This document shows, piece by piece, positions 10,260-55,111 of a DNA stretch of 64,000 nucleotides. The stretch covers positions 4,056,953 through 4,120,952 of the forward strand of contig NC_088324.1 in NCBI RefSeq assembly GCF_910592395.1, read 5' to 3'. The notes beneath the pieces were generated by a model that saw nothing but the letters and a program-made list of their open reading frames with translations, searched no databases and was not told the DNA's origin. Each line of letters starts with the position of its first letter. Position 1 is the first letter of the stretch. The DNA is from Lineus longissimus (lineage: Eukaryota; Nemertea; Pilidiophora; Heteronemertea; Lineidae). Made by a program: the position numbers and the translations under genes.

Positions 10260-10261
10260 GC

Positions 10262-15148: not shown

Positions 15149-15149
15149 C

Positions 15150-26873: not shown

Positions 26874-26929
<56 letters not shown>

Positions 26930-32153: not shown

Positions 32154-32203
<50 letters not shown>

Positions 32204-33203
32204 ACGACGGACGCCACGGTATGGGATAAGCTCACCTCTGCTAAGAGGTGAGCTAATGAGACCTAGATAGCTCAATTCAGTCCAGTAATTTTCGAGGAAT
32301 CTTCAGTTTTGTGAAGTAAGGTTTGGGTGTTTTTGATTAAAATCTCTAATTTTTCTAACATCAGTCTGATGCATGATGATAATGCTAAATGACCTCATAC
32401 TGAGGCTGGACCATCTTCGCTTCATTTTAGGAGCAGCAAAGATTACTAGAGTCCCATTGAACAATCAGATGTTTTGTGACAATGGTTACATAACATTTAA
32501 TCCCCTCATTCAAAGGATTATTTAGGAATAATACCATAGGATTACTTGTAACAAAAGGTCTCGACATTGGTTCACAAAAATGGCTGTCATATGGGAACCA
32601 CTTGACCAAATCAAGCTTTCTTGGTCTCATTTTTCTTTCAAAAAGATTCTCCATCCGATGGTACCATTGATGTAGGGCTCATTCTTTGGGAAGTATGCAT
32701 GTGCATTTTTTCCGGGACACCCTGTATAGGTTCAATGAACCTTTGCTTACAAGGATAGGTCACCTTAGGTGGCGAGGCCCTTGAACAAACTGAATGACTC
32801 ATAATTACACAAAACCTGCACAACTTCGTGCATTGTACTGTGTACACAATGGCCATTTTGTGGAGTAAACCATTGGTGTACCTGATTGGTATCTCCACCT
32901 GATCAGATGCATATCATTTTAGAACAATTCTCCATGTATTAGAGTGTACTGTAATCATAGAACTCATAGAAGCCATTCTTCTGGGTGACAATATGGCAAC
33001 AAGAAAAACCAAACTGAACCAGTTTGCCTGAAGTATCCTACAACAAATGTAAGGTCAGACAGTTTCTCTAACGCCAAATAAAATTCCATCTACGCTAAAA
33101 CAATGCAGCCTTCTTTTTGGAAGTAATCTGGTACCGTACAAAATCCTTGATATTTCGCCAACTTCTTGTCCTTAAACATGGCTCCTTTTCCTGGGCAATC
33201 TCA
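27930..33203. repeat. 5.28-kb tandem duplication, right copy
   Basis: The second copy in direct orientation is 5274 bases long. Its right end runs without a break into the intact terminal exon of the minus-strand SET/recombinase gene, so the right copy is ancestral at that edge. The left copy is ancestral at its own left edge (22649). Confidence 0.95.
31118..32259. mobile_element. GCTCACCT/AGGTGAGC dispersed element (copy B)
   Basis: The duplicate of copy A inside the right half of the 5.28-kb tandem duplication. It is identical apart from a shorter CGA run (about 32146-32211). Confidence 0.85.
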
Positions 33204-33303
33204 ATTTGCCTTTTTCCTGGCATCTTGCCACGGATGACATCCAGTTTGAAGAACTGGCTGGCAGCTACCCTCTGCTGGTCTGTCCATGGATCATTCTTCT
33301 GAC
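33095..33303 (-). CDS. Last exon of SET/recombinase gene: Myb-like C-terminal domain
   Basis: The exon follows a TTTCCAG acceptor (33305-33304), reads QKNDPWTDQQRVAASQFF, then KMPGKRQIEI, then LRTRSWRNIKDFVRYQ, and stops at TAG (33095-33097). Three regularly placed helices with Trp residues (PWT, RSWRNIKDFV) suggest a Myb/SANT-like DNA-binding fold. I recall similar ends on other invertebrate and fish proteins that have zinc fingers and recombinase-like domains. It joins in phase 1 to the preceding 57-base exon. A basic tail (TSKKKAALF) closes the protein. The 3' half is duplicated at 27821-27929. Confidence 0.65.
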
Positions 33304-33764
33304 CTGGAAATGTATACATTTATAGAGAAAAGATGGTCACAAAATGTCATTTTTCCAGGACTTAATTTATGCTTCCTTTTCTCTTGATGCATATTCTTTG
33401 AAAATGTGGTATTGAATGAAATGGTCCAGGGACAATGGACTCACATCAGTGACCATGCGAACAAGGCAAAAATACTTTTGAGTATTTTGGTGGATAGTCT
33501 GAGTAAGAAGCATTTCATAATCATGAAAAATGGCAGCGTTTTTGATCTATCAATGAGGAAACAGCAGGCTCTAAAATTCTGAAGTTTGAACTCTGTGGCC
33601 ATGAACAGAATAGCCAAAAGAAAATCCAACAGGGAATGTTATAAAGCTTTATTAGAAGGATTGTGATCCTAGCTAAAGTAGATAAAAATTTTGCTTTCCA
33701 ATTGCACCCTTTGGCAAAACAGTGAAAAGTTTTCCTGCATAGCGCCACAATGTGACAAGATTTT

Positions 33765-33939
33765 CAGGGGCGGATCCACCTCCTCAAGAAAGAGGGGCGC
33801 AAAGCCAAAAACGGGGGGGGGGGGGGTCAGGTGGCCGTTTTTAGGTGAAAATCTCAAAAAGAATCTGCATGACAAATCAAAATTTTCTTCAAAATAGAGG
33901 GGGCGCATGCCGGGTCCACCCCCTCTGTATCCGCGCCTG
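33765..33939. mobile_element. hAT-like MITE
   Basis: It starts CAGGGGCGGATCCACC, and its right end reads GGTCCACCCCCTCTGTATCC then GCGCCTG, the complement of CAGGCGCGGATACAG. This is the CAGGGGCGGATC terminus seen widely in hAT MITEs. The flanks share ATTTT; a full 8-base duplication is not clear. It lies in the last part of the minus-strand gene's 3' introns. Confidence 0.65.
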
Positions 33940-34079
33940 ATTTTGAATACTTTTTTGTATGTCACTTTTCCTAGGGTAGGCCCATTCAACTAAAGGGAGT
34001 TTTCTTTGCATATAAATGATTGTGGGGTGAGATCAGCCACTTCCACAATTCATTCATCCCCCCCCCCCCCGCCCTAGCT

Positions 34080-34340
34080 AAGTTCAAATTTTTCGGACCA
34101 GTAATAAGGGAGAAAACGCATATTTTCATTTTTAACCTTTGGCCCCCTGGTGGCCAAACGGTGAATCACAGAAGGCCGCGATTTATTCTCTGAGTAGCGG
34201 TCACCCAGGGGTACATGTGTACCAAGTATGAGTTCAATAGCTTCAGCGGTTACAAAACGTGCCATGCATGTCTAACAAGGACGGACGACGACAGACGGAC
34301 GATGTGTGATGGTAACGGGTCACCACAGGTGAGCCAAAAA
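34080..34340. mobile_element. Truncated GCTCACCT/AGGTGAGC element
   Basis: One monomer of the dispersed family, from the TTCGGACCAGTAATAAGGGA phrase to the CAGGTGAGCC end. The CGA run is short and mutated. A related 5' fragment (AAATGGTCCAGGGAC) is at 33419-33433. Confidence 0.7.
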
Positions 34341-34361
34341 CCTTTAAAAAAATCAAATTAC

Positions 34362-34418
34362 CTGATGGTTGTAAGTGATTTCTTTTCTGTCGACATTTGC
34401 CACGCTTTTTGACCAACT
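34362..34418 (-). CDS. Small basic exon of the same gene
   Basis: A 57-base exon between a CTTTCAG acceptor and GTAATT donor, phase 1-1. It encodes LVKKRGKCRQKRNHLQPS, a nuclear-localisation-like basic stretch. Phases match the acidic exon before it and the Myb-like exon after it. Confidence 0.6.
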
Positions 34419-34747
34419 CTGAAAGATGAACAATTTGTATTAACGGAAATCCTGACAATATCAGGCCCTATGGAGCCCTCTTACTCTGGCACCCATAACA
34501 GGCATTAATACAGAGTGGGCGCAACCGGCATTACAGCTGTGGGGAGTGGCTTTATCAAATACTCCAAACACTCACAAGTGGGTTTTAAAAGATGAATGAG
34601 CCAAATCTCTACCATCTTGTATTATGGGTACATTCAACAGGGTGCTACCTCAATAATACCCAAAATAGTCAATTTTCGATTGGTAAACAGCCCCTTTAAC
34701 TTAACAAAATCCCTTTGAAAGGAAGGATTAAAATCAGTGCTGCTCAC

Positions 34748-34834
34748 CTCCTCCATTTGCAGCTTCTACTTCTCCTTCTCCTTCACTGTCACTGACATCT
34801 TCACCTTCACTTTGCTCTGCATCAAGTTCAACTT
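34748..34834 (-). CDS. Small acidic exon of the same gene
   Basis: An 87-base exon, phase 1-1, with TTTTCAG acceptor and GTGAGC donor. It encodes VELDAEQSEGEDVSDSEGEG and continues EVEAANGG. The acidic Ser pattern is a likely casein-kinase-2 type phosphorylation region. Confidence 0.65.
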
Positions 34835-34839
34835 CTGAA

Positions 34840-35745
34840 AAGATTTAAAATTGAAATCAGAATCTACTAACTAACCTCTAATATGGTTTATTGGATCACA
34901 CACATAATGGATAAAAGCTCCATCCAAACACTAATTATCATCCAGAAATTCATATCACCAATTGGATCTGGAAATGAAATATCTAATTAGGCTGACAATC
35001 TTGGATTGAGCGGGATATCAAAAGCAGCCTAGCAAGCACCAAGCCCAACACAGAAGAATTCAGGTGAAAAAATCCACCGCTCCTGTATTTATCAGCTTGA
35101 AACGAAAAATACAAATGGCTGACAGGTGGCCATCTTGGGAGGTCACCAAGGACGGCCTGCTGAAGAACCTTGCCCCAGTTGAGGCAAACCTATAAAAAAT
35201 CAATCAGTGATATTTAGTAGCATATATGGATGAGATTCTGTAACTTTGCCGAAGCACTATTGTTGTAATCACTGGATACAAGGTTACAAAGGTTACAGTG
35301 TACATAGTACTACCCATGTCCCACCTTATCATAACAGTTGTATTTCAGTGCTAAAACATTAGTTTGTTTAGGAATTTTAGGCAGACCTAGGCCTGATTCT
35401 GGCAAAAAGGTAGGTGAGGTTAGGTATTTGCTAGGTCTGAGTTGTGCTAGCTAGATCAATTGATGGGAGTCGTTCAATGTGTTAAATTCAATTTTTATTT
35501 CATAAGGATTCTAGGAGTTCATTATATAACATCATTCAGTTCTATTACCATTATAAATTCGAGAATGTCAAAGGCAAAGAAACGCAAGCGGTATTTTGAT
35601 GAGGATGGGCGTTTTGAAAAGGACAATGAGAAAGTGATATCAGCAATTAAGATGTGAAGGACAGTCTTTGTAATTTATATCAACTAACCAAAGAGGAGGC
35701 TGAACTCTATGTAATCTCTTGTAACCTTGGAACCATCCCCTTGTA
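34840..35745. other. Intron or intergenic stretch, one small open frame
   Basis: No supported exon on the minus strand. On the + strand a 30-codon frame at 35565-35657 (MSKAKKRKRYFDEDGRFEKD, ending KVISAIKM) lies just before the minisatellite. It could be a first exon or chance; no splice donor is visible before its TGA. Confidence 0.3.
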
Positions 35746-35747
35746 AC

Positions 35748-36212
35748 TCATGTACCCCTTGTAACCTTGTAAACGATATATTCCTTGTAACCAATGTATC
35801 TCTTGTAACCGATGTATCCCTTGTAACCAATGTATCTCTTGTAACCGATGTATCCCTTGTAACCAATGTATCTCTTGTAACCGATGTATCCCTTGTAACC
35901 AATGTATCTCTTGTAACCGATGTATCCCTTGTAACCAATGTATCTCTTGTAACCGATGTATCCCTTGTAACCAATGTATCTCTTGTAACCGATGTATCCC
36001 TTGTAACCAATGTATCTCTTGTAACCGATGTATCCCTTGTAACCAATGTATCTCTTGTAACCGATGTATCCCTTGTAACCAATGTGTCTCTTGTAACCGA
36101 TGTATCCCTTGTAACCAATGTATCTCTTGTAACCAATGTATCCCTTGTAACCAATGTATCTCTTGTAACCGATGTATCACTTGTAACCAATGTATCTCTT
36201 GTAACCGATGTG
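35748..36212. repeat. Minisatellite, 36-base unit of two 18-base halves
   Basis: About 26 tandem 18-base monomers CTTGTAACCRATGTATCY, alternating between an A form (CCAATGTATCT) and a G form (CCGATGTATCC) to make a higher-order 36-base unit. Because 18 is divisible by three, several frames stay open across it on both strands. Confidence 0.95.
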
Positions 36213-36720
36213 TTCACACATCTCAATTTGAATTCAAAGCGCATTACTCAATCCGCTTTCCAAAGGGAATTGAGTAGTTTACATTTTAAAGAGAGTTTGC
36301 ACATGCACTGACACGACTTTCTGTTTTCTCACAGGGCTATCGCATTTTCTAGTACATACAAATAATTTACACTGTTCATACTGTTTCTGCCATTTCACTG
36401 AATATCAAGTGCCGACGGAGAATAAGGAGAAGAATGGGAAGACTTAGGGCGAGTAAGTCTTTGCCTGCGTTGCATTTATTTCTTCTGCACGCCTGGTGCA
36501 CTGAGCACGGTAACGGCGCATTACCGTTCTCTCCAAGACGGCTGCCAAATTTGCGGCCGATCGAGGTGATTACATTTTGCCCGATTTCTCCATTTCCAGC
36601 GCGAGTTATGACTTGCCAGTTGGTGAGTACATTTTTCGCTATGCTGTGTACAAGCCGCCTTGCAAAATTCCTTGTACTTTCTGAGTAAACAGCGTTGAAA
36701 ACATCGAAGCGAGTGCACGG

Positions 36721-37413
36721 GGGTCGTACTAAAAGGCGTCCAGTAGCGTCCAGTTCCGACCAGTGGCGTCCAGTGCTTTATTATTGGTAACACGACAAGG
36801 CCTATCGCACCCATCGGTAACACGACAAGGCCTACCATGCCCATCGGTAACACGACAAGGTCAAGGCCTATCGCACCCATCGGTAACACGACAAGGCCTA
36901 CCGTACCCATCGGTAACACGACAAGGCCTACTGCACCCATCGGTAACACGACAAGGCCTATCGCACCCATCGGTAACATGATGAGGCCTACCACACCCAT
37001 CGGTAACATGACAAGGCCTACAACACCCATCGGTAACACGACAAGGGCTACCGCACCCATCGGTAACACGACAAGGCCTACCGCACCCATCGGTAACAAG
37101 ACAAGGCCTACCGCACCCATCGGTAACACGACAAGGCCTACCACACCCATCGGTAACATGACAAGGCCTTTTTTAGATCAACCAACCAAAACAAACATGG
37201 CGCCCAGTCATTTCACTGGTCTCAATAACAGATTGATTTTCAAATTATGATTACTCAGGAATGGCTGGTTAAAACTCTATGAAACTTTCAGATTACATAG
37301 ATAAGGGATGCATTGACACTTTAGAAGTGGTTTTGATACAAAAACCCCAATAATAAAGCACTGGACGCCAATGGTCGGAACTGGACGCTACTGGACGCCA
37401 TTTAGTATGACCG
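36721..37413. mobile_element. MITE with 8-base target duplication and internal minisatellite
   Basis: Terminal inverted repeats of about 65 bases start GGGTCGTACTAAAAGGCGTC on the left and CGGTCATACTAAATGGCGTC on the right, with GCGTCCAGTAGCGTCCAG inside both. GTGCACGG flanks the element on each side (36713-36720 and 37414-37421). The core is a 27-base minisatellite. The TSD length suits hAT-, P- or Merlin-type elements; the superfamily is not assigned. Confidence 0.85.
36783..37167. repeat. 27-base minisatellite inside the MITE
   Basis: About 14 units based on CCATCGGTAACACGACAAGG followed by CCTAYYR. One unit carries a 6-base insertion near 36860. The unit is a multiple of three, so open frames through it are not evidence of coding. 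Confidence 0.95.
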
Positions 37414-37704
37414 GTGCACGGTATCTTCTCTAACGGTAACGGCGTAGCTCACAAAAACACGGAGCACGGTAACGTCGTTGCAATTTTCGCTATATTCAGT
37501 CATGTGAGCGTTATCCCTTGGATTTCAAACTCCTTTCCCCCTGAATTCCAACTACAGTGAGTGAGGCTCAAGTCCTGGTCGCACATTGGTGATGTACAGG
37601 GTGAGTCAAAAAAAATGTCCCTCCGCATGAATGAGTTAAAAATATGCAACGTGGAAAATAATAAAACCGACTTTACCATTAATTAGCTATGGATGTTGGC
37701 TAGC

Positions 37705-38935
37705 AATGCTGAAATGAAATGGTCCAGGGACCATGTGCTCACCTGTTGTCAAAGGACATTAAGACATTTTAAAAGAGAGGAGAAACATATTTTCACTTTT
37801 GATGTTTGGCCCCCTATTGGCCAAACCGTGAATCGTATGACTCCAAGATTCAGTCTCTGAGTATGGGTCACCCAGGGGTACATTTGTACCAAGTTTGAGA
37901 CCTCTGGCTGAATTGGTTACAAAACATGACACCATTGACTAACGGCGGTGCCGTCGGCAAACTTTGACCTCTGTGACCTTGAAAAATAGTTCAAATCAAA
38001 AACCCGGAGGATATGTGATGTCCCATTAGTAGAAGTACCTACCATATTTTTTTCAAATTTTTCGAACCAGTAATAAGGGAGAAAACACATTTTTTTCATT
38101 TTTGACCTTTGGCCCCCTGGTGGCCAAACCGTGAAATATATAAGGCCGGGATTTGATCTCTGGGTAGTGGTCACCCAGGGGCACATGTGTACCAAGTTTG
38201 AGTTCAATAGCTTCAGCGGTTACAAAACGTGCCATCATTGACTAATGGCGGTGCCGTCGGCGAACTTTGACCTCTGTGACCTTGAAAATTAGGTCAAATC
38301 AAAAACCCGGATGATATGTGATGTCTTATTAGTAGAAGTACCTACTATATTTTTTTCAAATTTTTCGGACCAGTAATAAGGGAGAAAATGCAGTTTTTCA
38401 TTTTTAACCTTTGGCCCTCTGGTGGCCAAACCGTGAAACATATAAAGCCGGGATTTAGTCTCTGAGTAGCGGTCACCAAGGGGTACATGTGTATCAAGTT
38501 TGAGTTCAATAGCTTCAGCGGTTACAAAACGTGCCACCATAGACTAATGGCGGTGCCGTCGGCGAACTTTGACCTCTGTGACCTTGAAAATTAGGTCAAA
38601 TCAAAAACCCGGAGGATATGTGATGTCTTATTAGTAGAAGTACCTACCATATTTTTTTCAAATTTTCGGACCAGTAATAAGGGAGAAAATGCATTTTTTC
38701 ATTTTTGACCTTTGGCCCCCTGGTGGCCAAACCGTGAAACATATAAGGCTGGGATTTGGTCTCTGAGTAGCGGTTACCAAGGGGTACATGTGTACCAAGT
38801 TTGAGTTCAATAGCTTCAGCGGTTACAAAACGTGCCACCCATGTCTAACGACGACGACGGACGACGACGACGGACGACAGACGACGGACGCTGCGTCATT
38901 GTAAAGGCTCACCACAGGTGAGCCAAAAACCGTTC
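37705..38935. mobile_element. GCTCACCT/AGGTGAGC element with four monomers
   Basis: It starts AAATGAAATGGTCCAGGGAC and ends CACCACAGGTGAGCCAAAAA. The GGCCAAACCGTGAA phrase recurs at about 37819, 38122, 38425 and 38727, giving a period of about 302 bases. A CGA-type run lies near 38850-38890. This is an older, longer relative of the copies at 25.8, 31.1 and 49.7 kb. Confidence 0.8.
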
Positions 38936-39519
38936 CGCTGCACCTTCGCATATTGCCCAGAGACCCCATTGTTCACCGGTGTCCAAAATGGTTAAAGGTA
39001 AGATTTTTGATTGTGAATAATACCTATGATGTTATACATTAATCACCAGCAGTCAACATTTTGGATAAAGTGCTCCTCTGCATGTGTCCTTTTTTCTTTA
39101 TTCTTTCATTATTGGTATTTAGGGGGAGCATGGGCCTACTTTTAATAGAAACGCATGGTTTTCAACCCGGAATTTCATTTTCACAAGCTGTAGGAAAATG
39201 GAATAGCCTTGTTTGCGGACGATTTTGGACACTAGTGAACAATGGGGTCTGTAGACAATACGCGAGGTCGCAGCTGAATGACTTTTTGAGCATAGGTAGT
39301 CAACATCAATAGCTAAAGAAATGGCTTGGAATTCTTTTGCTCTGTCCTAATATCTTTGCAGACCAGTGTACATTATGTCCTCAGTTGGCTGGATGGTACA
39401 GGAGTGTCCATTTAATCCTGGCCAATGGTGACTCTTTTGGTGCACTATCTATATGGGGACACTCCATACAATTACGTACAAAACGGAACCACTGACACTG
39501 ACAGGGTTTTATTTTCCAA

Positions 39520-39621
39520 TTGAATTACCCCTCTATGCTGGTGGACCCCTTCTCTAGCATTTGTACAAGAGTGTCCCCAGTTGACACCCCTCTATGCTGG
39601 TGGCCCCCTTCTCTAACATTT
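39520..39621. repeat. Short tandem duplication
   Basis: CCCCTCTATGCTGGTGGMCC and CTTCTCTARCATTT occur twice, separated by GTACAAGAGTGTCCCCAGTT. The second copy is interrupted by the element starting at 39622, and its missing part resumes at 40086. Confidence 0.75.
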
Positions 39622-40085
39622 CGTCGCTGTACTATGAAAACCTCGTATCTGAAGTTTTTCAGTAGAGGCCTAAATGAAAACCTCGCATCTTCACAAAGTG
39701 TTAAAAAATCATTTATGAGGTTTTCGTTTTAAAGAATTTTGCATTTCTTCCTTAGGCCGGTAGAGTAATTGGAATTGCTAATACCCAGAATAAAACCTTG
39801 TCCCCAGGGGTCCTTCCATACCTTTCAAACACAGCCACGAATTGATGCACTTTCTCCAGAAAAGCCTCTGAATAAAAATTTCAGATACGAGGTTTTCACA
39901 ACTTTGAACAGATTTTGGAGGAAATCAGATACGATGTTTACATGAAGCTTATTTGGGGGCGTTCTAATAGCTAGACAACAATGAGGGACCTCTAAGCATT
40001 TGCAGAATGAAATTCTGTTCCTTTTGAAACCATGAAGCGAAAATGGGCAAAATGTCTGATACGTGGTTTTCATAGTACAGCGACG
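39622..40085. mobile_element. MITE with 4-base target duplication
   Basis: Inverted ends CGTCGCTGTACTATGAAAAC and its complement at 40065-40085, with ATTT on both sides (39618-39621, 40086-40089). The filled site is confirmed by the upstream tandem copy, which continues ATTTGTACAAGAGTGTCCCC without interruption. Four-base duplications occur in Chapaev-like elements, among others; the superfamily is not assigned. It lies about 55 bases beyond the donor of the recombinase exon. Confidence 0.75.
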
Positions 40086-40141
40086 ATTTGTACAAGAGTG
40101 TCCCCAGTTGACACAAAAGCTTAAAAGAGTATTAGACTTAC

Positions 40142-41890
40142 CCTCTTCCGGATTTACAACGATTTCTTCCAAACTTTTCCCCTGGTGAGTACTGAAGTTT
40201 CCGCTTTCCATTGCAATGAGAAGTTTTGACACTCGGGCTGTCTGTAGAGTTTCATCTGGAAGGCGATAAAATTCTCTGTGCACGCGAATGTCATGACCCA
40301 AGAAGTTCGCAAGAATATCCAGTTCATTTTCCTTAAGATTGAGAATCTGTGACAGTGTTGCGATTTGTTTTCGCAACTTCGTTGATTTCAGCAAGTCAGG
40401 GTATTTTGCCCCACAGGAAGTGCTAAAATCTCGTAGCGTGTCACTACCTCTAATATGCCCTTCTGAACTTCTGTTGGAACAAGCAAATATGAACTGATTT
40501 GATGGACTGACACCAGCAAGTGTACGGGTCTCAATCGATTTCTCTATGCACTTTGTCATATGTGCAGTGAGAAGAACTGGCACAGTCCTTCCGCGCTTGC
40601 CTACTATTTCAACTCTCCTCAGAATCTTCGATAGTTTTTGTTCCAGAGGTGACAATGACCCAGTAATGTCTTCTTGTCCTGTTTGATGTAGTTGCTTGAA
40701 GTCTTCTAGTTTCATCTTAGAAACTTCGCCTTGTCTTCTTCTGTTGAATAGAATCACCTGTGTGAGAGTTGCCTCAATGAGCTCACGCCACGAGTTCTTC
40801 ACATCTTCAAGAGCCTCGAGTTTCGCAAGTGCTTTTGTGGCAACATCTTTCAGATGCTTGGTCAACAGAGCACAGTCACTAGTTAGTGGAATTAGCTTGA
40901 CCTTATTGCGTTTCAATTCTCCAAGTTGGCGCAAGGCATGAGTGGATACATCATCTGTCCAGTTTTCCTCATACATTTCAATGAAGTTTTGACACCTCTC
41001 GGTTTCTGTTTTGTCACCAGCACTTAAAGCGTCTCTTTTCATCAACTTGGCACACTTTTTAAGAGAATGTCCGATCTTCAATGCAAGCGATGGTGTCCTC
41101 ATGGAATGGTCAGTTGGATTAAACCCCGATACATTCAAAGCAGAGATAACAATCAGGTCGAACTTCGTTGTACAAATGAAATTGGAAAGTGTAGCGGAGG
41201 GTTGATCACTTTCTATACGCAAATTAATCAACAGCCTCGCAACTTCCCGAAGAGTATTTCGCATTGCTGAAAACTGGTCCCTATCATGACCTTGTTTCTT
41301 GTATAGTTTGTTTGCTAATTTAAGGATCAACTGGTCACTTTTCACCACCCTTGACACTTCATCATGGGACAAAGAACAGAGAATTTCCTTCACACCCTCA
41401 GAAACTCCTGGTGCTGACGGCAGCAGCATTCTGGCTGATTCAACAACACGGGAATGTTTGCGAGGCTCTTTTTTGGTTGCCATATTACACCTTCGGACAT
41501 GCTTCCACAAGTCAGATTTGACATAGAATGCCAGGCAATATTCACATGGAACATAGTCAGTGTAAGGTGTTGAGATTTGCGGTCTATAAGCAACAACAAG
41601 TGTCCCTTTTCCATTGCGAATCACATCAGTGTTGTGAAGGTAATTCCCAAGATTCCTGAGATATGCGAACTGAGCATTCCGTTCTGATTGATCTTTTATC
41701 ATCTCACATCTTTGTACTTCCGACTCCTCCTTATGGACTGAGAGCATGTGACGAGTCAACTTGAGCTTGAAGCCTTTCAAACAAAATGGGCAGTAGTGCA
41801 ACTTGTCATACTTTCGGCTATCAGAGTTGTCGCACTCCATCACCAGGATCGAATCAGAGGTACTGTCCGGGGACTTCTTTTCACTGGCAG
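40142..41890 (-). CDS. Main exon of SET/recombinase gene: zinc fingers plus tyrosine-recombinase-like domain
   Basis: A 1749-base exon with TTACAG acceptor (41892-41891) and GTAAGT donor (40141), phase 1-1. Numbering from MMECDN: a C2H2 finger at 18-37 (CPFCLKGFKLKLTRHMLSVH); a second C2HC finger at 100-119 (CEYC...H115...C119); then a helical region. A recombinase-like C-terminal half follows, with Arg I in FNRRRQGEVSKMKLEDF (about 367-382), Arg II in TKLRKQIATLSQ (488-499), LANFLGHD with His517, and a candidate nucleophile Tyr526 in HREFYRLP. R-x-GE, (H/K)-x-x-R, LGH and Tyr in this order are the tyrosine recombinase signature, as in phage integrases and Crypton elements. The usual His of HxxR is Lys here. 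It could be an active YR, a domesticated one, or a DNA-binding remnant. Confidence 0.7.
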
Positions 41891-41892
41891 CT

Positions 41893-42908
41893 GTAAGTAA
41901 AAGCCTGGCATCAATCCCTGTTCAAAACGATGTTTTTAAAACAGTTCTGAGGACCATTTCTAAATCAATAAATCTTTAAGCCCTTTAAAGAAATGTCCCA
42001 CCAAAAGGTGAATAGGCTACCTGGATTCTGCACTTCTGCACCACAGGAAAAATATGGTCAATACCCCATGCAGAATTCTGAACCATTATGTTTCCACTAT
42101 TCCAGGATATTCTGCACTTAGATTACGTAGGGTGAAAATCTTAGTGATGAACTTCCTTTGTTTCACCATCCTTAAAGTCCAATAATGGTCCTATAAAGAC
42201 TTTGCTCACTCTGTTGAGAGCTAAAAGCCAATGAGACAGAAGTGAGAGGGTATCTTAGCGAAACGAAAATAATGGCCCTTGGACATGTCAATGCTGGATG
42301 TGACTCCAGAGACTGATGATGTTACATCAACAATGACGACACAAAACCTGAGGCGAATGGGCATGAGAGCATGATTTGGATGCGCTTGGAAATGGGCGCT
42401 TTTTACTTGATTGGATATGCTACTGACAGATTTGAACAAAACTGGATGTGATTGTTCTTTGATGATCTGGGATCATGTTGCAATGAACTATTATGTGGTA
42501 GAGAAGGAAAAACGTTTTCGTCATTATGTGATCCGCCCCTACTTATTTATATACCATTGGAACAGGGAGTAGGATACAATGTGGCTGCCTTATTGGTTAT
42601 CAGACCATGCCCATTTTTGAAAGGGACCATCCTATACTCATGACCACAAAACATGCACAAAAATGTGCCTTGATCAGGAAAATCACTGTAGTTATGTCTT
42701 CATACTTTCCCCTTTTGCAAAACTGATCAAATTTTTGGATACTATTACTAAGGTTCTAAACTTTCCAAAAATGTATTGTTTGTTCCTAGGATGTATAACA
42801 AAAAATGGCTATTTATCTTTAAAAATTCGCATAACATTGGATTTTTTCCTCCTGTATCACCTTAACCTGTGACTATGAAATTGCCAAAAATTACGGTTTT
42901 CAACTTAC
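41893..42908. other. Intron, nothing supported
   Basis: Intron between the recombinase exon and the acidic exon at 42909. No repeats with clear ends and no alternative exon were found. Confidence 0.35.
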
Positions 42909-44442: not shown

Positions 44443-44752
44443 CCCTTTCGAGACTAAACTCAACGATCGTTCGCGTAACTTCCCTGGTGGCCGGAACTCG
44501 ACGATCGTCGAGTTAGGCCTACCCGATTCAAATTTCCCGCCGGACTCCCCTGAACACCAGGATCGTTTAGAGTCAAAGCCAGCGCAATGACGTCATTCTA
44601 GGGGGAATACCCTTTCGATTCATATGCGATATCACTTATTTAGCTGCAGTTTTCGATGGTTCTGAGCAGTTTTTAGCAGGTAATTCTGAATTTGCTTGGA
44701 TAAATCAGGCCACCAGGGTGGGTTAGCGCCGGATAAATTAGTCTCGAAAGGG
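44443..44752. mobile_element. TTAA-flanked MITE 1
   Basis: Inverted ends CCCTTTCGAGACTAAACT (left) and CCCTTTCGAGACTAATTT (right, complement). TTAA at 44439-44442 and 44753-44756. The interior contains ACGATCGTTCG and ACGATCGTCGA palindromes. TTAA with CCC termini is the piggyBac pattern (Kolobok is also possible). Confidence 0.8.
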
Positions 44753-44756
44753 TTAA

Positions 44757-45469
44757 GAGCCAATTTTTGAGAAGTTCAGACAATATCAGACACATTGGAT
44801 TGTTGACCCCTCAGTTTTGGCTGAGGCTTCTTTTGTGAGAAGGGTATGGTACCCCAACTTCAAATCCCAAAGCGTTTCGCGATTGACCTCTCTAACCAAA
44901 ACTACTAACCAAAACTGACCCTCAAAGATTTGAGAAATGGGGTCCTGAAATAGCCATTTTTCTGTCCGCAGCCCTTTTTGGACCCCCGTTTCTAAAATCT
45001 TTGAGGGTGTCCCAGTGAAATAACACCATAAACCTCTCAGGGCCCTTCCATATGAACAATATCTCCAATATAATTACTGGGATACCCTCAAAGATTGGAA
45101 ATAATGGTAGGTCTTACTATGGCAGATTATAGCCCGGACCATTTTGAGCGCCCCCCATTGGAAATCTTTGAGGGTGTCCCAGTGAAATAACTCCACTATT
45201 CTATTCTACCCCCACTGTAGTCTCAATATCAGGAAACAATTCACTGGGACACCCTCAAAGATTTTGTTTAGAGGGGTGTAAACTTGCAATTTTGTCTTTT
45301 GGCCAAAGGGACCCAAAATAGGGGGTGCTGTAGTTTTGGTTAGGAGAGGTCAATCACGAAACGCTTTGGGATTTTAAGTTAGGGTACCATACCCTTCTCA
45401 CAAAAGAAGCCTCAGCCAAAACTGGGGGGTCAACAATCCTCACTGTCTGAACTTCTCAAAAATTGGCTC
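44757..45469. mobile_element. TTAA-flanked element 2 with 145-base inverted repeats
   Basis: It begins GAGCCAATTTTTGAGAAGTT and ends with the complement, with TTAA at 44753-44756 (shared with MITE 1) and 45470-45473. Long inverted repeats reach about 44757-44910 and 45328-45469. The core has four inverted or direct copies of ATCTTTGAGGGTGTCCCAGT. There is no coding capacity. Confidence 0.85.
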
Positions 45470-45749
45470 TTAACTAATCACTTTGTAGTCCATTTTCTGC
45501 AACCAAAATCATACTTTCTCAGGATTTGCGATAGTACGGCCACCGAATCCCCCGCCATCGTGGCTCTGTATATAGACACTTTGTTGCACAGACGCGCTAC
45601 TGAACAACTGACTCTGCACTATACTGCCGTAGAAGAGAATGGTGAGTTAGTGTTTGCTAGGTCACAACCCATTTCCTGACAATTATTGTCAAATTACCCA
45701 TGTTTGGGAGCGGGGACCATGCCCGGGGGACCTAAGTAATTGTCTTTAC

Positions 45750-46037
45750 CTGGAATGTGCTCCTCAGTAGATGAATGGTCCAGTGCTTCATCATCGGAAG
45801 TATCCATCACTGACTCACATGAACCGTCTGGTGCAGTTTGCGAACTGCCAGCTCTTGGGGCTACATGGCGAGTAGAAATGTCATCAGGCGGTGTGGTGTT
45901 TGACTGTTCTGATGGTCCAGCGGCTGAGCTTAAGGAATGCGACTCAGGAGATACAGGTATTTCTGCAACTGCCGGCTTGTCATCAACAGACTCACTTGAT
46001 GTTACCAATGGATTGGCTGCAAATGTGGCCGCATCTG
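45750..46037 (-). CDS. Acidic Ser-rich exon, copy 2
   Basis: A 288-base exon, phase 1-1, with both splice sites intact (TTCTTCAG acceptor, GTAAAG donor). It encodes SSESVDDKPAVAEIPVSPES, then EQSNTTPPDDISTRHVAPRA, ending EHIP. It differs from copy 1 by about a dozen residues. The flanking intron sequence is also duplicated (45475-45560 with 46180-46275). Confidence 0.65.
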
Positions 46038-46189
46038 CTGAAGAAAAGACAGCTCTTATAAGATTCCTTTAGGCCAATTTGTGCATTATGTGCACAAAAT
46101 TATAAAATGTCCTCAAATAGATACTAGAGATCCACTTTGAGTGGTGGCTTCCTTCTTCTCTCAAGTGCATACGATGTTATAAAATCACT

Positions 46190-46400
46190 ATGCAGTCCAT
46201 TTTATGCAACCAAAATCATACTTTTGTTGCGATTTGCGATAGTACGGCCACCAAATCCCCGCCATTGTGGCTCTGTATACAGAAACACACATTCATGTAT
46301 GTGGTGTTGAACGGGGACGGCCCTCCATTTGGAAATTTGTACTATCCGGCCAAATGGGGACCCTCACCTTGCATGTCGGACAAATGGGGACTTACTGTAT
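46190..46400. repeat. Duplicated intron segment with inserted GGGGAC repeat
   Basis: 46180-46275 matches 45475-45570 (both contain GATTTGCGATAGTACGGCCA). After GTGGCTCTGTATA the copies part. Here a fragment of the GGGGAC family follows (GGTGTTGAACGGGGACG, GGCCAAATGGGGACCC). Confidence 0.7.
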
Positions 46401-46923
46401 TGGACAAAAATCATGAAGATTGTCTATCATTGCAACAACACTCCACCTATATTGAGGGAATATTGACTAAGAATCACGTTTCTGCCTATTTTCCATAGCT
46501 TCTTTAGTGTAAAAGTCGCTTCCAGACACAGTTCTACTTAGGGATTGATGAAGCAAGCTGGTTTTAATGAGTTTCTTTACTGGTATTACAAATCATCTGA
46601 AAATACTCAAAACTCTGGTATGAGACACGGGCTCGCCAAAATCAAGCAGGGGTGGGGGCGTAGATCAAAAGTGAAACTTTGGGAGGGGGTTGGGGGTTCT
46701 TTACCCTCATGTCTACTCCTTCAGATTCCAGAAACCCAGATAGCAAAATGCGGCCATTTTTAAGTGATTCAGATCTATTTTGTAGCAGAATCGGAACCTA
46801 GATCGCCAGGGCCCAAATCCTTTCGTCTCTGTTAGGCCTCGTGCAATTTCCTGACCAATATTATCAAATTACCCATGTTTGGGAGCAGGGACCATACCCG
46901 CGGGCCATAGCAATTGTCCTTAT

Positions 46924-47211
46924 CTGGAATGTGATCCTCAGCAGATGAATGGTCCAGTGCTTCATCATCACAAGTATCCATCACTGACTCACATGAATCG
47001 TCTGGTGCAGTTTGCGAACTGCCAGCTCTTGGGGCTACATGGCGAGTAGAAATGTCATCAGGCGGTGTGGTGTTTGACTGTTCTGATGGTCCAGCGGCTG
47101 AGCTTAAGGAATGCGACTCAGGAGATACAGGTATTTCTGCAAATGCCGGCTTGTCATCAACAGACTCACTTGATGTTACCAATGGATTGGCTGCAAATGT
47201 GGCCGCATCTG
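46924..47211 (-). pseudogene. Acidic Ser-rich exon, copy 3, donor lost
   Basis: A 288-base copy that stays open and keeps its TTCTTCAG acceptor. The donor reads CCAG|ATAAGG where copies 1 and 2 have CCAG|GTAAAG, so the GT is gone. It probably cannot be spliced in as an internal exon. Confidence 0.65.
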
Positions 47212-47224
47212 CTGAAGAAAAAAG

Positions 47225-47324
47225 ACAGTAGAAAGGTCATCAGTCTGTATGGTGTCTGACAAGTCCGAATGGTCTGCTGTTGGTGAACCACCCGGTGCGT
47301 CAGGCCCATTCAAGCTTTGCGAAG
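47225..47324 (-). pseudogene. Acidic exon, copy 4, truncated
   Basis: This starts after a TTACAG acceptor (47326-47325) and encodes SPTADHSDLSDTIQTDDLST, which corresponds to SNTTPPDDISTR of the other copies. Base-level similarity covers about 70 bases. Its 3' half and donor are missing; it runs directly into the pyrimidine tract of copy 3. Confidence 0.5.
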
Positions 47325-47329
47325 CTGTA

Positions 47330-48065
47330 ACAAATGCAAAATAAATGACAATTTTTTCTCAGGGCCACATCTGATGCAATGGCTTACCAAAGCATTCCTT
47401 CCTCTTAATCTTCTTAAGTCTTCTTCACCAAATTAGGAATGCAACTTCATCACATCATCACACATGGCAATAATAAATGATATAATTCAGATGAAATTAA
47501 AGGGGGCATAGCATCCAACATTACCTAATTCTTACCGGTAAATAGGCTACTGTGTCTAAGAAATGGAAATGGTTAAATGCATTACTTTAATTTGGCCTGG
47601 GCCACTGTAACAGTCACCAAATCCCCCTGGAACCATAGCCGCACAATCAACTATACAGCTTACCCTGACATAAGGCAGGGTATTGTGTCCGGGACTTAGA
47701 TAGGACTACCATATCTATCACACCGCTCAGGGATAGAGCCTATGGATCCTTACGAGCCAACATTCTGGTCCACTACAGAATCTCCTGTAGAAATATTGAT
47801 GTATTTGAATTTGAATTTATTTTTTGCGACCACTCAAAATACATCGATACATTACATAATAAAATTTACATTGGGAGTGGTCGGGGGCACAACAAAAGAT
47901 CAGAAAGATTGCTGTCATGTTGTGCCCCAACCGATTCTTGACCGATTCTTGAGTAGCCTGTTTAAAGAATTAGTTGCGCATTTTTGCCATATCCCTGCAA
48001 TCGTGATTAATTCCAATCAAAATAGTTAGCAATATCATAAAACAAAGGTGAGAACAAAACATTAC
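47330..48065. other. Intron, nothing supported
   Basis: AT-rich intron between the acidic exon set and the exon at 48066. No mobile element ends were recognised. Confidence 0.3.
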
Positions 48066-48413
48066 CTGTCACAAATCTATCAAGATCTTGAAGCAATTCA
48101 TCCATCAGCATAAGAAAAACTTTTCCTTGCCAATCTACATCCACGAGTTCTTCACGAAAGATATTCATGACAGCTTGGAAAAAATAGTCATCAGAATTGT
48201 AGATGTCCGCCAAATCAGCATGTCGCTCGGAAGTGATCCACTGTTCATCTGTCTTTGGTCTAAGGAGAGTAGTGGCCGATCTATAGTTCTGGATTGCTGA
48301 CTCCCACATTGCTCGTAATTGACCCCTTTTTGATTTTTTCACGTATTCCAGGTAGTTGTCAATCTTGCAGTGGGTAGTATGGCGAGTCCTCTGATCCATA
48401 ATGCGAGAGTTTG
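48066..48413 (-). CDS. Helical exon of the SET/recombinase gene
   Basis: A 348-base exon, phase 1-1, with TTACAG acceptor (48415-48414) and GTAATG donor. It encodes NSRIMDQRTRHTTHCKIDNY, then WESAIQNYRSATTLLRP, and ends LLQDLDRFVT. It is rich in predicted helices and charged residues; no family is recognised. Phases join it to the exon at 48917 on one side and to the acidic exons on the other. Confidence 0.6.
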
Positions 48414-48916
48414 CTGTAAGTTAGGAAAGATTTTGAATTTGAATTCAATAGCACACACAAATGGCACAGCAATTGCCTGGCTAATACATTATACTCTCAT
48501 TATACTGCCAGCATGGCACCAGGCAGCTGATGCTGGTGCTCTCATCTTGCTTTTATGCATTCCATGTTTACCGAGGCCACTTTGTCCCACATATTTCTGT
48601 CCCATCGTATTATTGCTGATGTTCGCAACAGCGCATTTGTCAGTGTTTTTGTATAGTGTTGCAATGATCATTTTTCACAGTCCTTCACTAGTTGAAATCA
48701 ATAAGAATTTTAAAAATATTACTGCAGAGCTTGGGTCACCAATCTAGTGTCCCTTTCGGACACTTTCAGAACGGAATACGGTGTGCCATTTCATTGTAAA
48801 CGTTATGGGGAGAATACACCTTGAGCACATTTCCCTCGAAGTTTTTGAACTATGATATCCTTCTGGAAATGCAAAGCAGTCAGTGAAAAAAATATGCTCA
48901 TATGAAAAAAACATAC

Positions 48917-48991
48917 ATGCATTATCAGTGTCATCTTTTCTTGCTTCAACAACACGCGCCATGTACTTGTTTGGATGTGCAGGCTTCCATT
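48917..48991 (-). CDS. Short exon of the SET/recombinase gene
   Basis: A 75-base exon, phase 1-1, with TCTTTTCAG acceptor and GTATGT donor. It encodes WKPAHPNKYMARVVEARKDD then TDNA. The next exon upstream is not identified. The nearest known coding exon (SET exon 2) ends in phase 0, so at least one linking exon must lie between 48992 and 53765 if they belong together. Confidence 0.5.
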
Positions 48992-49694
48992 CTGAAAAGA
49001 AACCATCTGACTCAGTGCATTGTATTTTTCATCGGTGAGCCGGCCGCCAGGTTCATCTTTGAAATGAGTCAACATTGGTAGTTTGAGGTATTTTAGTCTA
49101 AGAATAGAAATTAAACCCTCGACTTTGGACCTTGGACCACAGGTGAGCCAAAGACCCAGACACACTTCGCTGGAAAACCATCGAAGAAACTTGTAGCAGA
49201 TTCACCTAAGTGCTGTATTACAGGGGATGACTTCTAATGGCATTATGCAGTCAAATGGCGACATTGTAAACTAACTCATAGGATATCATTTAACAAATGA
49301 TGAGGAAGGACATCCAAGAAATGAGGGAATCTCAAGAGCCGTCTATTGCCAGAGCTTATGACAATCAGCAAACGGTCCCTGTTTGGAATCTGTGTACTAC
49401 GGGGATTTGAGTTGGTCCCCATTGGCCTGGATGGTACACACTTTAAGTTTAAAGGAAAAAACAGTGAAAACAAATTTTCAACCTGCAAGACCAAAACCTG
49501 GAGTAGCAAACCTCTGAACTGTTTTCAAACTGGATTGTTCAACAAAAACAAGAAAATACCATAAAGATAATTTGTTCACTTGCAAAGTATACAAAAATTG
49601 CACAATGGTTCTAACCACCAAAGAGTTTACAGGATGCTGCATTTTGACCACTATTTCATTTTTTACTATGCTGATACTAGCCACTGGCATTTGT

Positions 49695-50815
49695 GTAAAT
49701 GAAATGGCCAGGGCCATTGTGCTCACCTCATGTGGAGGAAAGATGGATAAAGAGCATGGTCTTGTGTCATGTAGTGTAAGGTTTGATGTAGGTCCAAGCA
49801 ATTACAATTTCCCCAAAATGGCCAATTTACAGTACATTCGACCTCTGTGACCTTGAAAAGTAGGTCAAATCAAAGAAGACCCGGATGACACATTGAATGG
49901 ATGTTAGAATTAGATGTACCTATGATATAAAATTGGTGCCAATCGGGCAAGTCATTACTAGGAATAATGGCATTTTGAAGAATTTAGGATTTGGCCCCCT
50001 CCCTGGAGGCCAAATGGCAAATCAGATCGCACCAAACTTCGGTACCTGAGATCACCTGACCAAGGGGTACATGTGTACTTAATTTGTGATCAATAGTCAT
50101 TGCAGTTAAGAAACATGCCATAGTTACGGCCTGACGGCGAATTTACGCCATTTGACCTCTGTGACCTTGACAAGAAGGTCAAATTAAAAACCTGTGTGAC
50201 ATATACTGTATGGTGGTTAGATGTACCCATGATATCAAATTGGTGGCAATCGGGCAAGAAGTTAAGGAATAATCACATTTTTAAGGTTTTTGGATTTTGC
50301 CCCCTGGTGGTCAAGTGGTGAATCATATTGGACCAAACTTTGGTCCCTGAGATCACCTGACTAAGGGGTAAATGTGTACCAAATTTGGTATCAATAGTCA
50401 TTGCAGTTTAGAAACGTGCCATCGTTACATCCTAACAGCTAATTTACACCATTTGACCTCTGTGACCTTGAAAAGGAGGTCAAATCAAAAACCCGGAGGA
50501 TATGTGATGCACCTTTGCTAGAAGTACCTACCATATTTTTTTCAAAATTTCCCGACTACTATTAAGGGAGATATTGCATATTTTCACTTTTAACGTTTGG
50601 CCCCCTGGTGGCCAAACCATGAAACGAATCGGACCGAAACTTGGTCTCCCAGGTGTCATTACATAAGGGTACATGTGTACCAAGTTTCAACTCAATAGCT
50701 CTAACAGTTACGAAACGTGCCCTGCTAACGGACGACGGACGACGACGACGACGACGACGACGGACGACGGACGCCACGGTATGGGATAAGCTCACCTCTG
50801 CTAAGAGGTGAGCTA
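49695..50815. mobile_element. GCTCACCT/AGGTGAGC element (copy C)
   Basis: A near-identical relative of the copies at 25838 and 31118, with scattered single-base differences and a much shorter CGA run (50728-50770). The edges are AAATGAAATGGCCAGGGCC and GAGGTGAGCTAA. Flanking DNA differs from that of the other copies, so this is a separate insertion. Confidence 0.85.
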
Positions 50816-51394
50816 AAAAAGGTTAAATGCTATGAGACAGACTACAAAGTACAATGTATACAAAGTAGGCAAAAACACAGTGAGAGGTCCCTTTTTCTTT
50901 TCTGACTTGGCTCACACCCAGCAACATGAACAAGTTATATTTACGGTATTGTAAAACAAAAAGGTGGACACTTCTTAAAAACATACCGATAGCATTCTTT
51001 TCCTTAAAAAAACATGGAAAATACAGCATGATTGACAAATTGATTTAGAATTCAGAAGAACACAGTGCTCACACATGCTGAGTAAATCAACGGTGCTTCC
51101 GTAAAAGTTACGACCGTGAGAAATTTCTGAACGTCCATTTTTTTTACAAAAGTTAGGATCACGAAAAGGTGCTGCACACATAAAAGCAACTTGATTACCA
51201 AATCATTTTAAAGATACTTAGGATTAAAATCAGGCCATTTTCCCACTTGCTGCAGATAAGTTATTATGAGAAGCATGTATTGGAAGCAAAAAACAAAATT
51301 ATCTTCTTTAATTAGTGCACAAGAACAGTGGATTTGCACAAGGTGCATAAAAACAAGGAAAACATGCACAGAATCCTTAATACTTTAGACCCAT

Positions 51395-51560
51395 GTGTAG
51401 ACATACGTGTATATTGTGGCAATTGGGGACGTCCCCATTTGGAAGTCCGCACTATCCAGACAAATGTGGACCTTCACCTTGTGTGTGTTGAATTCATACC
51501 ATACAATCATGACAATTGGGGACTGAACGTATTAGGCCAAATGGTGACGTACTTTTATGA
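51395..51560. repeat. GGGGAC dispersed repeat, left part
   Basis: AATTGGGGACGTCCCCATTT through GGACTGAACGTATTAGGCCA and ATGGTGACGTACTTTTATGA. The right part of the same copy (GCCAATTGGGGACGTCCCCA to GTCCCCGTTTGACAC) is at 52215-52300. The two are separated by an insertion that starts near 51588. Confidence 0.65.
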
Positions 51561-51587
51561 AGTTCAATCAAAGTCATTATTAAAGGA

Positions 51588-52203
51588 TGCTAATGCCCGA
51601 TGTCCACAACGTATTTTCTATTAATAAATATCTATTAATAAATATCTAAGTTAGAAAATTAAACGCCCCGGTGTCCATGGTGTAGAAATCTACGTTCTTT
51701 TCGAACATGGCACCCGTCCAGTCGAGACTACGACGTGCGATGGCCATCACAGCTGTCGTATTGGCAGCTGACATAAAGAAAAAGAAGAAAAAACGACGAC
51801 GACCTGGGGCATTATGGACCAGGAAGTGGATTTTAAGACGATCGGAAAAGGGGTATTCCTCTATGAGGACCTCCACCTCTTCCTGTTTCAAAACCATGTT
51901 TGCATGTGAAGTACAGCAGTAAGCTAGGCCCTATATCTTCTAACCATTACCATTTCTACCTTCATACGCAATAATAGGACTGATACTATGTAATTGGCTA
52001 TGACAACGACCCATCGACAGTTCCATTCAATTATTCAATCTTTTGAATTGAGCTCTAGAGAGTTAATTGTTCAATAGAAATTTATAAACCTGCTGTCCAC
52101 GTCCCATAAGCAAAAATATTTCTACTAATAAATCTACACGGATTACCCCGCTGTCCACGATGTATTTTTTCTAAGTTAGAAAAATACGCCGTGGACAGCG
52201 GGC
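51588..52203. mobile_element. Composite insertion with GTCCAC inverted ends and Harbinger-like coding fragment
   Basis: The left edge is around GCCCGATGTCCACAACGTAT and the right edge is the hairpin at 52147-52202. On the + strand 51707-51922 reads AADIKKKKKKRRRPGALWTR then KWILRRSEKG, and in another frame GVFLYEDLHLFLF. This resembles the N-terminus of PIF/Harbinger transposases (basic run, W-x-R-x-W-L-x-R-R, then a helix). A one-base shift breaks it. Assignment is tentative. Confidence 0.4.
52147..52202. repeat. Near-perfect hairpin
   Basis: CCCGCTGTCCACG, a short A/T-rich arm and loop, then the complement ending CGTGGACAGCGGG; the 56 bases form one stem-loop. Related half-palindromes are at 51588-51605 and 51660-51680. 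Confidence 0.85.
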
Positions 52204-52329
52204 ATAAAACTGCCATTTGCCAATTGGGGACGTCCCCATTTGGCACGAAGTCCCCAGACTGACAGGGCCAGGTGGGTTTCTGTCCCCGTTTGACACAAAA
52301 CACAAAGACACACACAGGTTTGTTTCTAA

Positions 52330-53765
52330 TCATTGTCCTTGGAACCAGAAAATTCTATTAACTTCTTCATGGTTAATTGTTGCTTAAAAATCATTGGAAG
52401 ATTGGCATTTTGCTTTCAACCTGTTGGTGGCAAGATTCCTTCAGTGACTCTCCATTGTCCATGTTGTCCCCAGCCAACAAAAGTAAAGGTCATATTAGTT
52501 ATTGACACTGGGCTGTGGTTAACAACAGGATTGATAGGCCCTTTCAATAACAATGCTTTTCCAGGGTGACTGGGGTCATGGAGGATGAGTCAATCTTGTG
52601 GTCAGCATGGTTACCTAATGCCACTTATCCTTTTTTTTGTTGAGGGCAATGGCACTCTCTCAAGGGATCTTGCCTATAACAGATTGGAAGAAACATGCCT
52701 ATCTTTCAATGTTTTTTTTCATAATAAACCATGAAGAAATGAAAAGAAATTTCTAATTCTTAGGAAAATGATTAGAAAAGAACCTGTCTACACACGGGTC
52801 TAAAATATTTAGGAGTCTGTGCATGTTTTCCTTGTTTTTATACAGTTTGTGCAAATCCATTGTTCTTGTGCATTAATTATGGAAAATATTTTGTTTTTTT
52901 GCTTCCAATGCATGCTTCTCATTACAACTTATCTACACCAAGTGGGAAAATTTTAATCCTAAGTATCTTAGGTGTGCAGCACCCTTCCCAACCTCCATGC
53001 ATTCACGACATTTGACCAATACCAATGTACTCCACCATGACAAAAAGTATATAAAGCCCTGATTTCTGACAGATTTGAAAATAAACATAACCAAAAAAAA
53101 CCATTGAAGTGGCAAAATGGTAAGTGGGTGAGGTCAAGTTCTGAGGTATCCCAAGTGAGTCATGTCACGTGACAGGTGATTTGCGGCTTTGTCGCTTTGG
53201 AATGCTGGTGAGGGGGTTGAGGATTAAGACAGCACTGGAGTATCACATATACTGGGGAGGCACCTGATATGTTTCCGAAACCATTCTTAAGAAAGTGTTG
53301 TGCAGCCTGCCCCGATTCACTGTGTCAATGATCTGCATGCCTCGAATGCTTTCTGAGCTGGAGAAAATGTTTTTATTCCCCATCTTTTTAAATCTTCGGC
53401 ACAAAACATGCAAAGGAGACTGACTTCACTTGGGATACAGATTTTAGCGAACTGTTGGGTGTTAGTGTAACACTTTCACCATGGGTCAGTGACTCTCAGG
53501 AGCTCTTTACTTCTATTTATAGCCATTGTAGCCAAAACTTAAGTTATGCCAAGTTGGGTAAACCTTCAGGAAATTTGGCTAATTTTTTCCTATGGTACTA
53601 GAGTATCTATTACATTGCATTAGAACTTGTTTGTGTGATGGGGAAAATTAGCCTGAAAATCTTCAATTTGGCTAAAACTTTTCGAAGTATAGAGTGGCTC
53701 CTGAAAAAGCAAATGAAATCCCTGTAAATGGAAAACAAAATTGAAAGAGGAAAGGTGAAACATAC
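52330..53765. other. Long intron or spacer, nothing supported
   Basis: AT-rich sequence with no convincing exon. The linking exon expected between SET exon 2 and the exon at 48917 was looked for here and in 48992-52330 and not found. Confidence 0.3.
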
Positions 53766-53967
53766 CCAAGGAAGCTCCTTTAGCCCGTAATCATACAATA
53801 TTTCCTCCCCTGGTGGGATGTTTCTGATGGCACATAACATTAGGCGTGGAGTTCCACTTCCATCCACCTTCACTTTCATTCTTGCATTCTGCTCCTTTTT
53901 TCTTCCGTGGTTGACAAGGCGACCAAAACTTTCTTCATCTCTCTCAGGTTCTTTGGTGGCGTCCATG
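53766..53967 (-). CDS. SET domain exon 2 (KMT5A/SET8-like)
   Basis: A 202-base exon with TTTGCAG acceptor (53969-53968) and GTATGT donor. Joined to the exon at 54958 it gives GKEW + C + MDATKEPERDEESFGRLVNH, matching the CVDAT...GRLINHS region of KMT5A (histone H4 Lys20 monomethyltransferase). GTPRLMLCAIRNIPPGEEIL and YDYG follow, the SET core that ends with the catalytic-site Tyr. The NHS motif reads NHG. The C-terminal ELPW resembles the short post-SET helix of KMT5A, and no post-SET cysteines are seen. The product would methylate lysine with S-adenosylmethionine in the nucleus, if active. Confidence 0.85.
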
Positions 53968-54957
53968 CTGCAAAGTTATTTGATGTAGTAAGTAGACATA
54001 AAATCCTACTTTCTTAGTTAAGTTTGAAAATAACACACGGAAAGTGTGTAACTGGTAACTGGTATGAATGTCCCTGTTTGTTGATGCGTCCCCATTATGC
54101 TAGATTTCTATGCAGAGGTGTCCCCTTTTGACATCTTACAGTGACCTTGACGAGTCCTTGCTGGGAGTGCCTGGCCATGAAAATTTCATGGAAATCCGAC
54201 CAGTAATTCATGTAATAAGGAATGCCCGCTAGTGGCAAAACTGAAGAAGTTTTTTGGGACAATTTTTTCCTCTTGTTCCGCTAGGTTCGAGACATCACGT
54301 CATACCCTGTGTCAGGCATTATTGATGTCGATGTCATGCACGACGTCACACCATTCGCAGTCATGTGGTGCACTGTGTCACACTGCTGGACCATTGGATT
54401 TTCATGTTTAATCCCTAATTACTCAGTTGTTTCACCCGACACATGAGATATGTACCTCATTGGCGTCTCCCCTGTGTCCAAATTTGCAAGGGTGAACGGA
54501 TGATTGCCAGAATGACAGCCAGAAATAACCAAAAATGTAAATATTGTAGGCATTTGCCGCTTATGGACGCGTCCCCAACAATAGGTAATACAAAACCTTG
54601 GTATCGAGAGGTAACCAGAGGTGTCCAGTTTACGTTTGAGACCTCCCTAAGCTTGATAGGTTGAATATTTCAGAACTGATGGGCTTTTCCTGAAGATGAC
54701 ATTTGACATTTTATGTAAACGTTGACCCCAATCATTTGCTTGGATCTTTGAATCAAAATTGCTATAATCATGCTTTAAAATTATAATTCAGTAGGATTAA
54801 CAATGGTTGTCTACCAAAACTACTTCATTCTGGGTCTGACTCAAATGAGCTGTTTTGGGTCTGTTCCACCTGATGGCAGACCCTTAAATTCAACATCAAA
54901 CAGTAAATTCCCAAATATCAGTGGATGAGCTAATACTAGAAAATCTTCTTTACTTAC

Positions 54958-55111
54958 CACCATTCCTTTCCCGAATGTTGAAAAAAAAACCGAAAAACAC
55001 TTTCGACCTCCTTCTCCCTCTTCTCTCCTTCTTCACCGGAGATAAGTTCCCCCACATATTCGCAAATTTCTTCTCCAAGCAATATTGGGGTTCTTGTACG
55101 TACACCTCGTC
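54958..55111 (-). CDS. SET domain exon 1 (KMT5A/SET8-like)
   Basis: A 154-base exon with GACTTCAG acceptor (55113-55112) and GTAAGT donor, ending in phase 2 as exon 2 requires. It encodes RGVRTRTPILLGEEICEYVG, then ELISGEEGEKREKEVESVF and FFQHSGKEW. GRGV, EYxGELI and the F-x-F-x-x-x-x-x-x-(W/Y)C strand are the SET-N region of KMT5A-type enzymes. The first Gly comes from the preceding exon (phase 1). A candidate donor at 57065 (ITGG) has the right phase but is unproven. Confidence 0.8.

Follow-up and report, generated by a model that had tools for sequence, protein, structure and literature searches.

Can one animal gene join a histone methyltransferase domain to a DNA recombinase fold? The question is raised by a 64,000-nucleotide (nt) stretch of the genome of the nemertean Lineus longissimus (contig NC_088324.1, positions 4,056,953 to 4,120,952), hereafter the window, whose minus strand carries a long chain of exons. 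An initial annotation, made from the letters of the sequence, had proposed that these exons form a single modular gene linking a SET domain like that of KMT5A to a tyrosine-recombinase-like domain. All coordinates given here are positions in the window, and exons are labelled E-2 to E10, 5' to 3' on the minus strand. The reading favoured here, to which we assign a probability of about 0.5, is that of one multi-exon, SETMAR-like host gene. Splicing would join its KMT5A-type SET domain to a domesticated tyrosine-recombinase-like domain that is accompanied by two zinc-finger-like motifs, the recombinase fold serving as a DNA- or chromatin-binding module. The SET half and the recombinase-like half are adjacent and co-oriented, and within each of them the splice sites and the reading frame are intact.

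The SET half and the recombinase-like half

The first half of the chain consists of E1 (55111-54958), which holds the first part of the domain (Pfam SET at E 4.8e-4 alone), and E2 (53967-53766), which holds its core (E 2.6e-9 alone, with KMT5A found in the PDB). Both exons are bordered by AG and GT and splice together in phase, and the 118 residues obtained from the two together make up a complete SET domain, covering positions 2-105 of the 105 of the Pfam profile PF00856 at E 2.2e-18. Closeness to KMT5A as opposed to other SET enzymes was judged on PDB entries only; there, among the best 60 of 111 matches, KMT5A/SETD8 provides the 14 top sequences (E 6.3e-15 to 8.6e-13), followed by another SET protein (1.9e-10) and ASH1L (7e-7), with SETMAR further down at 1.8e-5. 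Given the full Pfam match and this ranking, the first half of the chain is, by its sequence, one that encodes a KMT5A-type SET domain, in agreement with the earlier claim. A scan of viral contigs with the SET domain returned no relative.

The second half centres on E7 (41890-40142), a single exon of 582 residues which contains all the motifs (R-x-GE, KLRKQ, LGH and FYRL) named in the initial annotation. Residues typical of tyrosine recombinases follow one another in the expected order: R385-x-x-E, G-K431-RGRTVP, T503-x-x-R506 with LR-x3-AT, LGH532, and Y541, nine residues past H532 (codon starts at 40736 for R385, 40598 for K431, 40382 for T503, 40373 for R506, 40295 for H532 and 40268 for Y541). 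Five of the six catalytic residues are kept, and threonine (T503) replaces the usual first catalytic histidine. A strict pattern (R..E, 60-190 residues, LR...AT, 10-22 residues, LGH, 8 residues, Y) occurred in none of 2000 shuffles of E7, in two of 15 known recombinases (XerC and XerD) and in two of 198 Escherichia coli open reading frames (ORFs) of at least 150 residues, both of them XerC/XerD; as it was composed after E7 had been viewed, its rarity makes the evidence look stronger than it is. An intermediate pattern was found in 4/15 recombinases, 0/2000 shuffles and 2/198 E. coli ORFs, and a loose one in 12/15, 45/2000 and 8/198, at least some of these eight ORFs being recombinases. In an unguided MAFFT alignment of E7 with 12 of the 15 recombinases, its R, K, R and Y fell in catalytic columns; in the control, at least five of the six catalytic residues were reached by 6 of 300 shuffles and by 4 of 167 E. 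coli segments, real recombinases possibly being among the latter.

Many teleost proteins presumably contain a very similar region (RRxGEV, GKRGRxVP, TKLRK, LGHDxRxHRxFYRLP), some of them probably together with a KMT5A-like SET domain; if so, the locus belongs to a family already present in databases. Judged by the way its motifs are ordered and spaced as a set, and by these presumed relatives, the E7 domain is very probably a diverged relative of the tyrosine recombinases.

Several results weigh against this identification and, with it, against the fusion. In Pfam, PHROGs and NCBIfam, single-sequence HMMER retrieved no recombinase match at E values up to 10; a PDB sequence search with the E7 domain found no recombinase. 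The initial annotation had itself named a profile search without a recombinase hit as evidence against it, and such was the outcome here, with a weaker test than HHpred. Two of 300 shuffles outscored the domain with a hidden Markov model (HMM) built from 13 recombinases, and a block score of the domain was reached by 111 of 400 shuffles, the best box I being other than the RQGE site. Searches of phage and plasmid records gave no match; no relative was found when the E7 exon was scanned against viral and prokaryotic contigs, nor with a degenerate LGH-Y pattern applied in two forms to viral contigs and in one form to prokaryotic contigs. Single-sequence AlphaFold2 models of the domain were uninformative (mean predicted local distance difference test, pLDDT, of 40.3 and 35.0).

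Taken together, the absence of a significant profile match in any library, HMM and block scores lying within those of shuffles, the threonine at the first catalytic histidine and the late devising of the strict pattern could mean that the domain does not have a tyrosine-recombinase fold and that its motifs arose by chance. We consider this quite unlikely, as LR-x3-AT, LGH-x8-Y and R-x2-E stand in order, with GKRGRTVP between, an arrangement seen in 0/2000 shuffles. A separate candidate assignment, a MOM1-like match to PF25029 (E 0.0013-0.012), was rejected because it lies below the cut-off of that profile and covers only 70 residues.

The exon chain and the junction between E2 and E3

Do the two halves belong to one gene? 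The minus-strand exons with AG/GT borders that had been proposed are present at the positions claimed, and the internal exons described as phase 1-1 from 48991 downwards are open, with lengths divisible by three, in all eight cases: E3 (48991-48917), E4 (48413-48066), E5b (46037-45750), E5c (44171-43887), E6 (43115-42909), E7 (41890-40142), E8 (34834-34748) and E9 (34418-34362). The terminal exon, E10 (33303-33095), closes with a stop codon, and in-frame stops are absent from E1-E2 and from E3-E10. Codon statistics were trained on E7 and compared with open intron windows of at most 120 nt, which overlap, so that the resulting fractions are not independent probabilities; the scores of E1, E2, E3, E4, E5b, E5c, E6 and E8 are matched by only 0 to 0.7% of these windows. 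The score of E10 is weak (5.7% of intron windows as high) and that of E9, a short basic exon of 57 nt open in all three frames, is unsupportive (39%).

The evidence against a single gene is concentrated at the passage from E2 to the short exon E3. E2 ends in phase 0 and the strong acceptor of E3 requires phase 1, so that the plain splice is out of frame, adding 49 residues before a stop; joining E2 past a skipped E3 also runs into a stop. That acceptor scores 11.9, a value matched by none of 242 intron AGs, with splice matrices built from ten acceptors and ten donors at the locus itself, and its phase implies a further coding exon upstream. An AG at 48983, 8 nt downstream, gives phase 0, and from E2 the reading frame then stays open for 1165 residues, up to the stop of E10. 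Its score of 0.7 is shared by 39% of intron AGs and compares with 10.8-17.5 at ten other acceptors in the locus. The 266 open phase 0-1 candidate exons lying between E2 and E3 include no convincing one: the best combines an acceptor of 11.6 with a donor of 3.0 (known donors 6.2-10.1) and a negative codon score. The link between 53766 and 48991, which the initial annotation had called unproven, is worse than that, since the best-scoring sites at its two ends do not match in frame, and the proposed single protein with SET and recombinase-like domains does not read through here by the plainest splice.

This frame break would fit two neighbouring genes on the same strand. One would be a KMT5A-like SET gene that has either an unseen end of its own or the 49-residue out-of-frame tail, and the other a separate recombinase-like gene starting within the 4.8-kilobase (kb) interval. 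There, 60 ATG-started stretches reach a phase 1 donor (the longest of 62 codons), and poly(A)-like hexamers occur at 53377, 52957 and 51312. However, no first exon stands out in the interval, and three hexamers are not above the approximately four expected from a mean of 0.875 per kb across the window. We consider the two-gene arrangement possible, at well below even odds. A single gene with a shared transcript has in its favour the common strand of the two halves, their order and the phase of E3, and against it the frame break.

Linkers, ends of the chain and repeats of the window

The acidic linker of the initial annotation is present, with the correction that one phase 1-1 acidic exon has been multiplied in tandem to three copies, E5a (47211-46925), E5b and E5c, the first of which is decayed and has lost its GT donor. 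A further stretch of 34 nt similar to this exon lies at 47260-47227. Over 94 codons, E5b and E5c differ at 19 residues, with a non-synonymous divergence (dN) of 0.112 and a synonymous divergence (dS) of 0.140, a near-neutral relation which gives no sign of constraint on the linker. This divergence, the dead copy E5a and the frameshift at the E2-E3 junction would also be consistent with a formerly fused gene in decay, the frame break and the lost donor being true lesions. Such decay appears improbable, given that E1-E2 and E3-E10 are free of in-frame stops and that E7 is long and open.

Of the remaining exons, E4 matches no Pfam profile at E values up to 10, E6 is a charged linker and E8 is acidic. 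For the two zinc fingers claimed, the Cys/His spacing can be read from the sequence of E7 (C-x2-C-x10-H-x4-H and C-x2-C-x11-H-x3-C); in Pfam they appear as sub-threshold rows (E 0.015 to 4.8). The Myb-like end assigned to the protein finds no support: E10 gave neither a Pfam row at E values up to 10, Myb/SANT included, nor a PDB match. At the 5' side, two tentative exons, E-2 (55900-55762) and E-1 (55541-55468), are open and AG/GT-bordered and connect in phase to each other and to E1, and E-2 would be the first coding exon, with an ATG in GCCATGG context (codon start 55880). Codon statistics do not raise the pair above introns (fractions of 0.40 and 0.83 of open intron windows as high, respectively).

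A head-to-tail duplication of 5.28 kb (22649-27931 and 27930-33205, 99.8% identical), either very recent or an assembly artefact, includes in its downstream copy only the last 111 nt of E10. A dispersed repeat of approximately 1.1 kb, which starts in hairpin-like fashion and contains units of approximately 300 bp, is found at 49697-50816, 31113-32256 and 25833-26982, with weaker relatives at 37786-38839; copies that share one orientation and 98.5% identity are found close by on the upstream side of E3 and on the downstream side of E10. The intron after E7 holds minisatellites at 35766-36211 and 36786-37169, with units of 36 bp and 30 bp. Elsewhere in the window, retrotransposon remains on the minus strand at 9633-15172, probably Gypsy-like, match reverse transcriptase (E 5.3e-32) and an integrase core (E 7.7e-17). 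Two long ORFs at opposite ends, 2487-4769 on the plus strand and 62295-63488 on the minus strand, are 57% identical over 392 residues, have no Pfam match up to E 1 and possibly encode an undescribed mobile-element protein.

Possible function and known systems

If both halves are translated together, DNA binding would fall to the zinc-finger-like motifs and the recombinase fold, and methylation of a histone near the bound site to the SET domain, strand exchange being optional or lost. By analogy with KMT5A the substrate may be H4K20, yielding H4K20me1. Retention of R, K, R, H and Y makes strand cleavage possible, and the threonine substitution makes it less certain. A bolder version, in which the single protein is at once a writer of a histone mark and a still-competent tyrosine recombinase, either domesticated or from an undescribed mobile-element family that captured a KMT5A-type SET domain, seems unlikely. 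The locus does not resemble a mobile element in its organisation, as it extends over approximately 22 kb with many introns and the sole direct repeats of approximately 1 kb around E3-E10 are copies of the dispersed repeat. In the favoured SETMAR-like gene, the second half would descend from a mobile-element gene.

How does such a gene compare with known proteins? KMT5A (SETD8, PR-Set7) is the nearest relative of the SET domain in the PDB, with the YDYG motif aligned, and differs in that its YYFQY stretch aligns with FFFQH; it is not known to carry a recombinase-like region. Paralogues of KMT5A are reported in an annelid (PMC12153100). In E7 the residues R, K, R, H and Y follow one another as in XerC and XerD, at similar spacing, and the LR...AT and LGH....Y text is shared too, whereas identity over the aligned catalytic part is 19% and 15%, respectively, the first histidine is a threonine, and the stretch between box I and the lysine is longer in E7.

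As domesticated tyrosine recombinases of animals, the Crypton-derived DUF3504 genes come closest. According to PMC3212892, animal tyrosine-recombinase sequence is used in host genes along with other domains (ZMYM2-4, QRICH1, KCTD1, KIAA1958, WOC) and DUF3504 is without most of the catalytic residues; the passages found there mention no SET partner. E7, in contrast, retains five of the six and gives no Pfam row for DUF3504 at E values up to 10. A literature search, assessed by title, returned no description of a fusion of SET and tyrosine recombinase among the matches listed, of which PMC9406493 and PMC10380595 contain the words Crypton, SET domain and tyrosine recombinase. For the fusion of a SET domain with a transposition enzyme the nearest precedent is SETMAR (PMC12062965), although its SET domain is distant from the one found here (E 1.8e-5) and its partner is a mariner transposase instead of a tyrosine recombinase. 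Should the two halves indeed form one protein, it would represent a second, independent weld of this kind after SETMAR, with a partner keeping most of its catalytic residues, and such welding would be a repeated route to DNA-guided chromatin writers.

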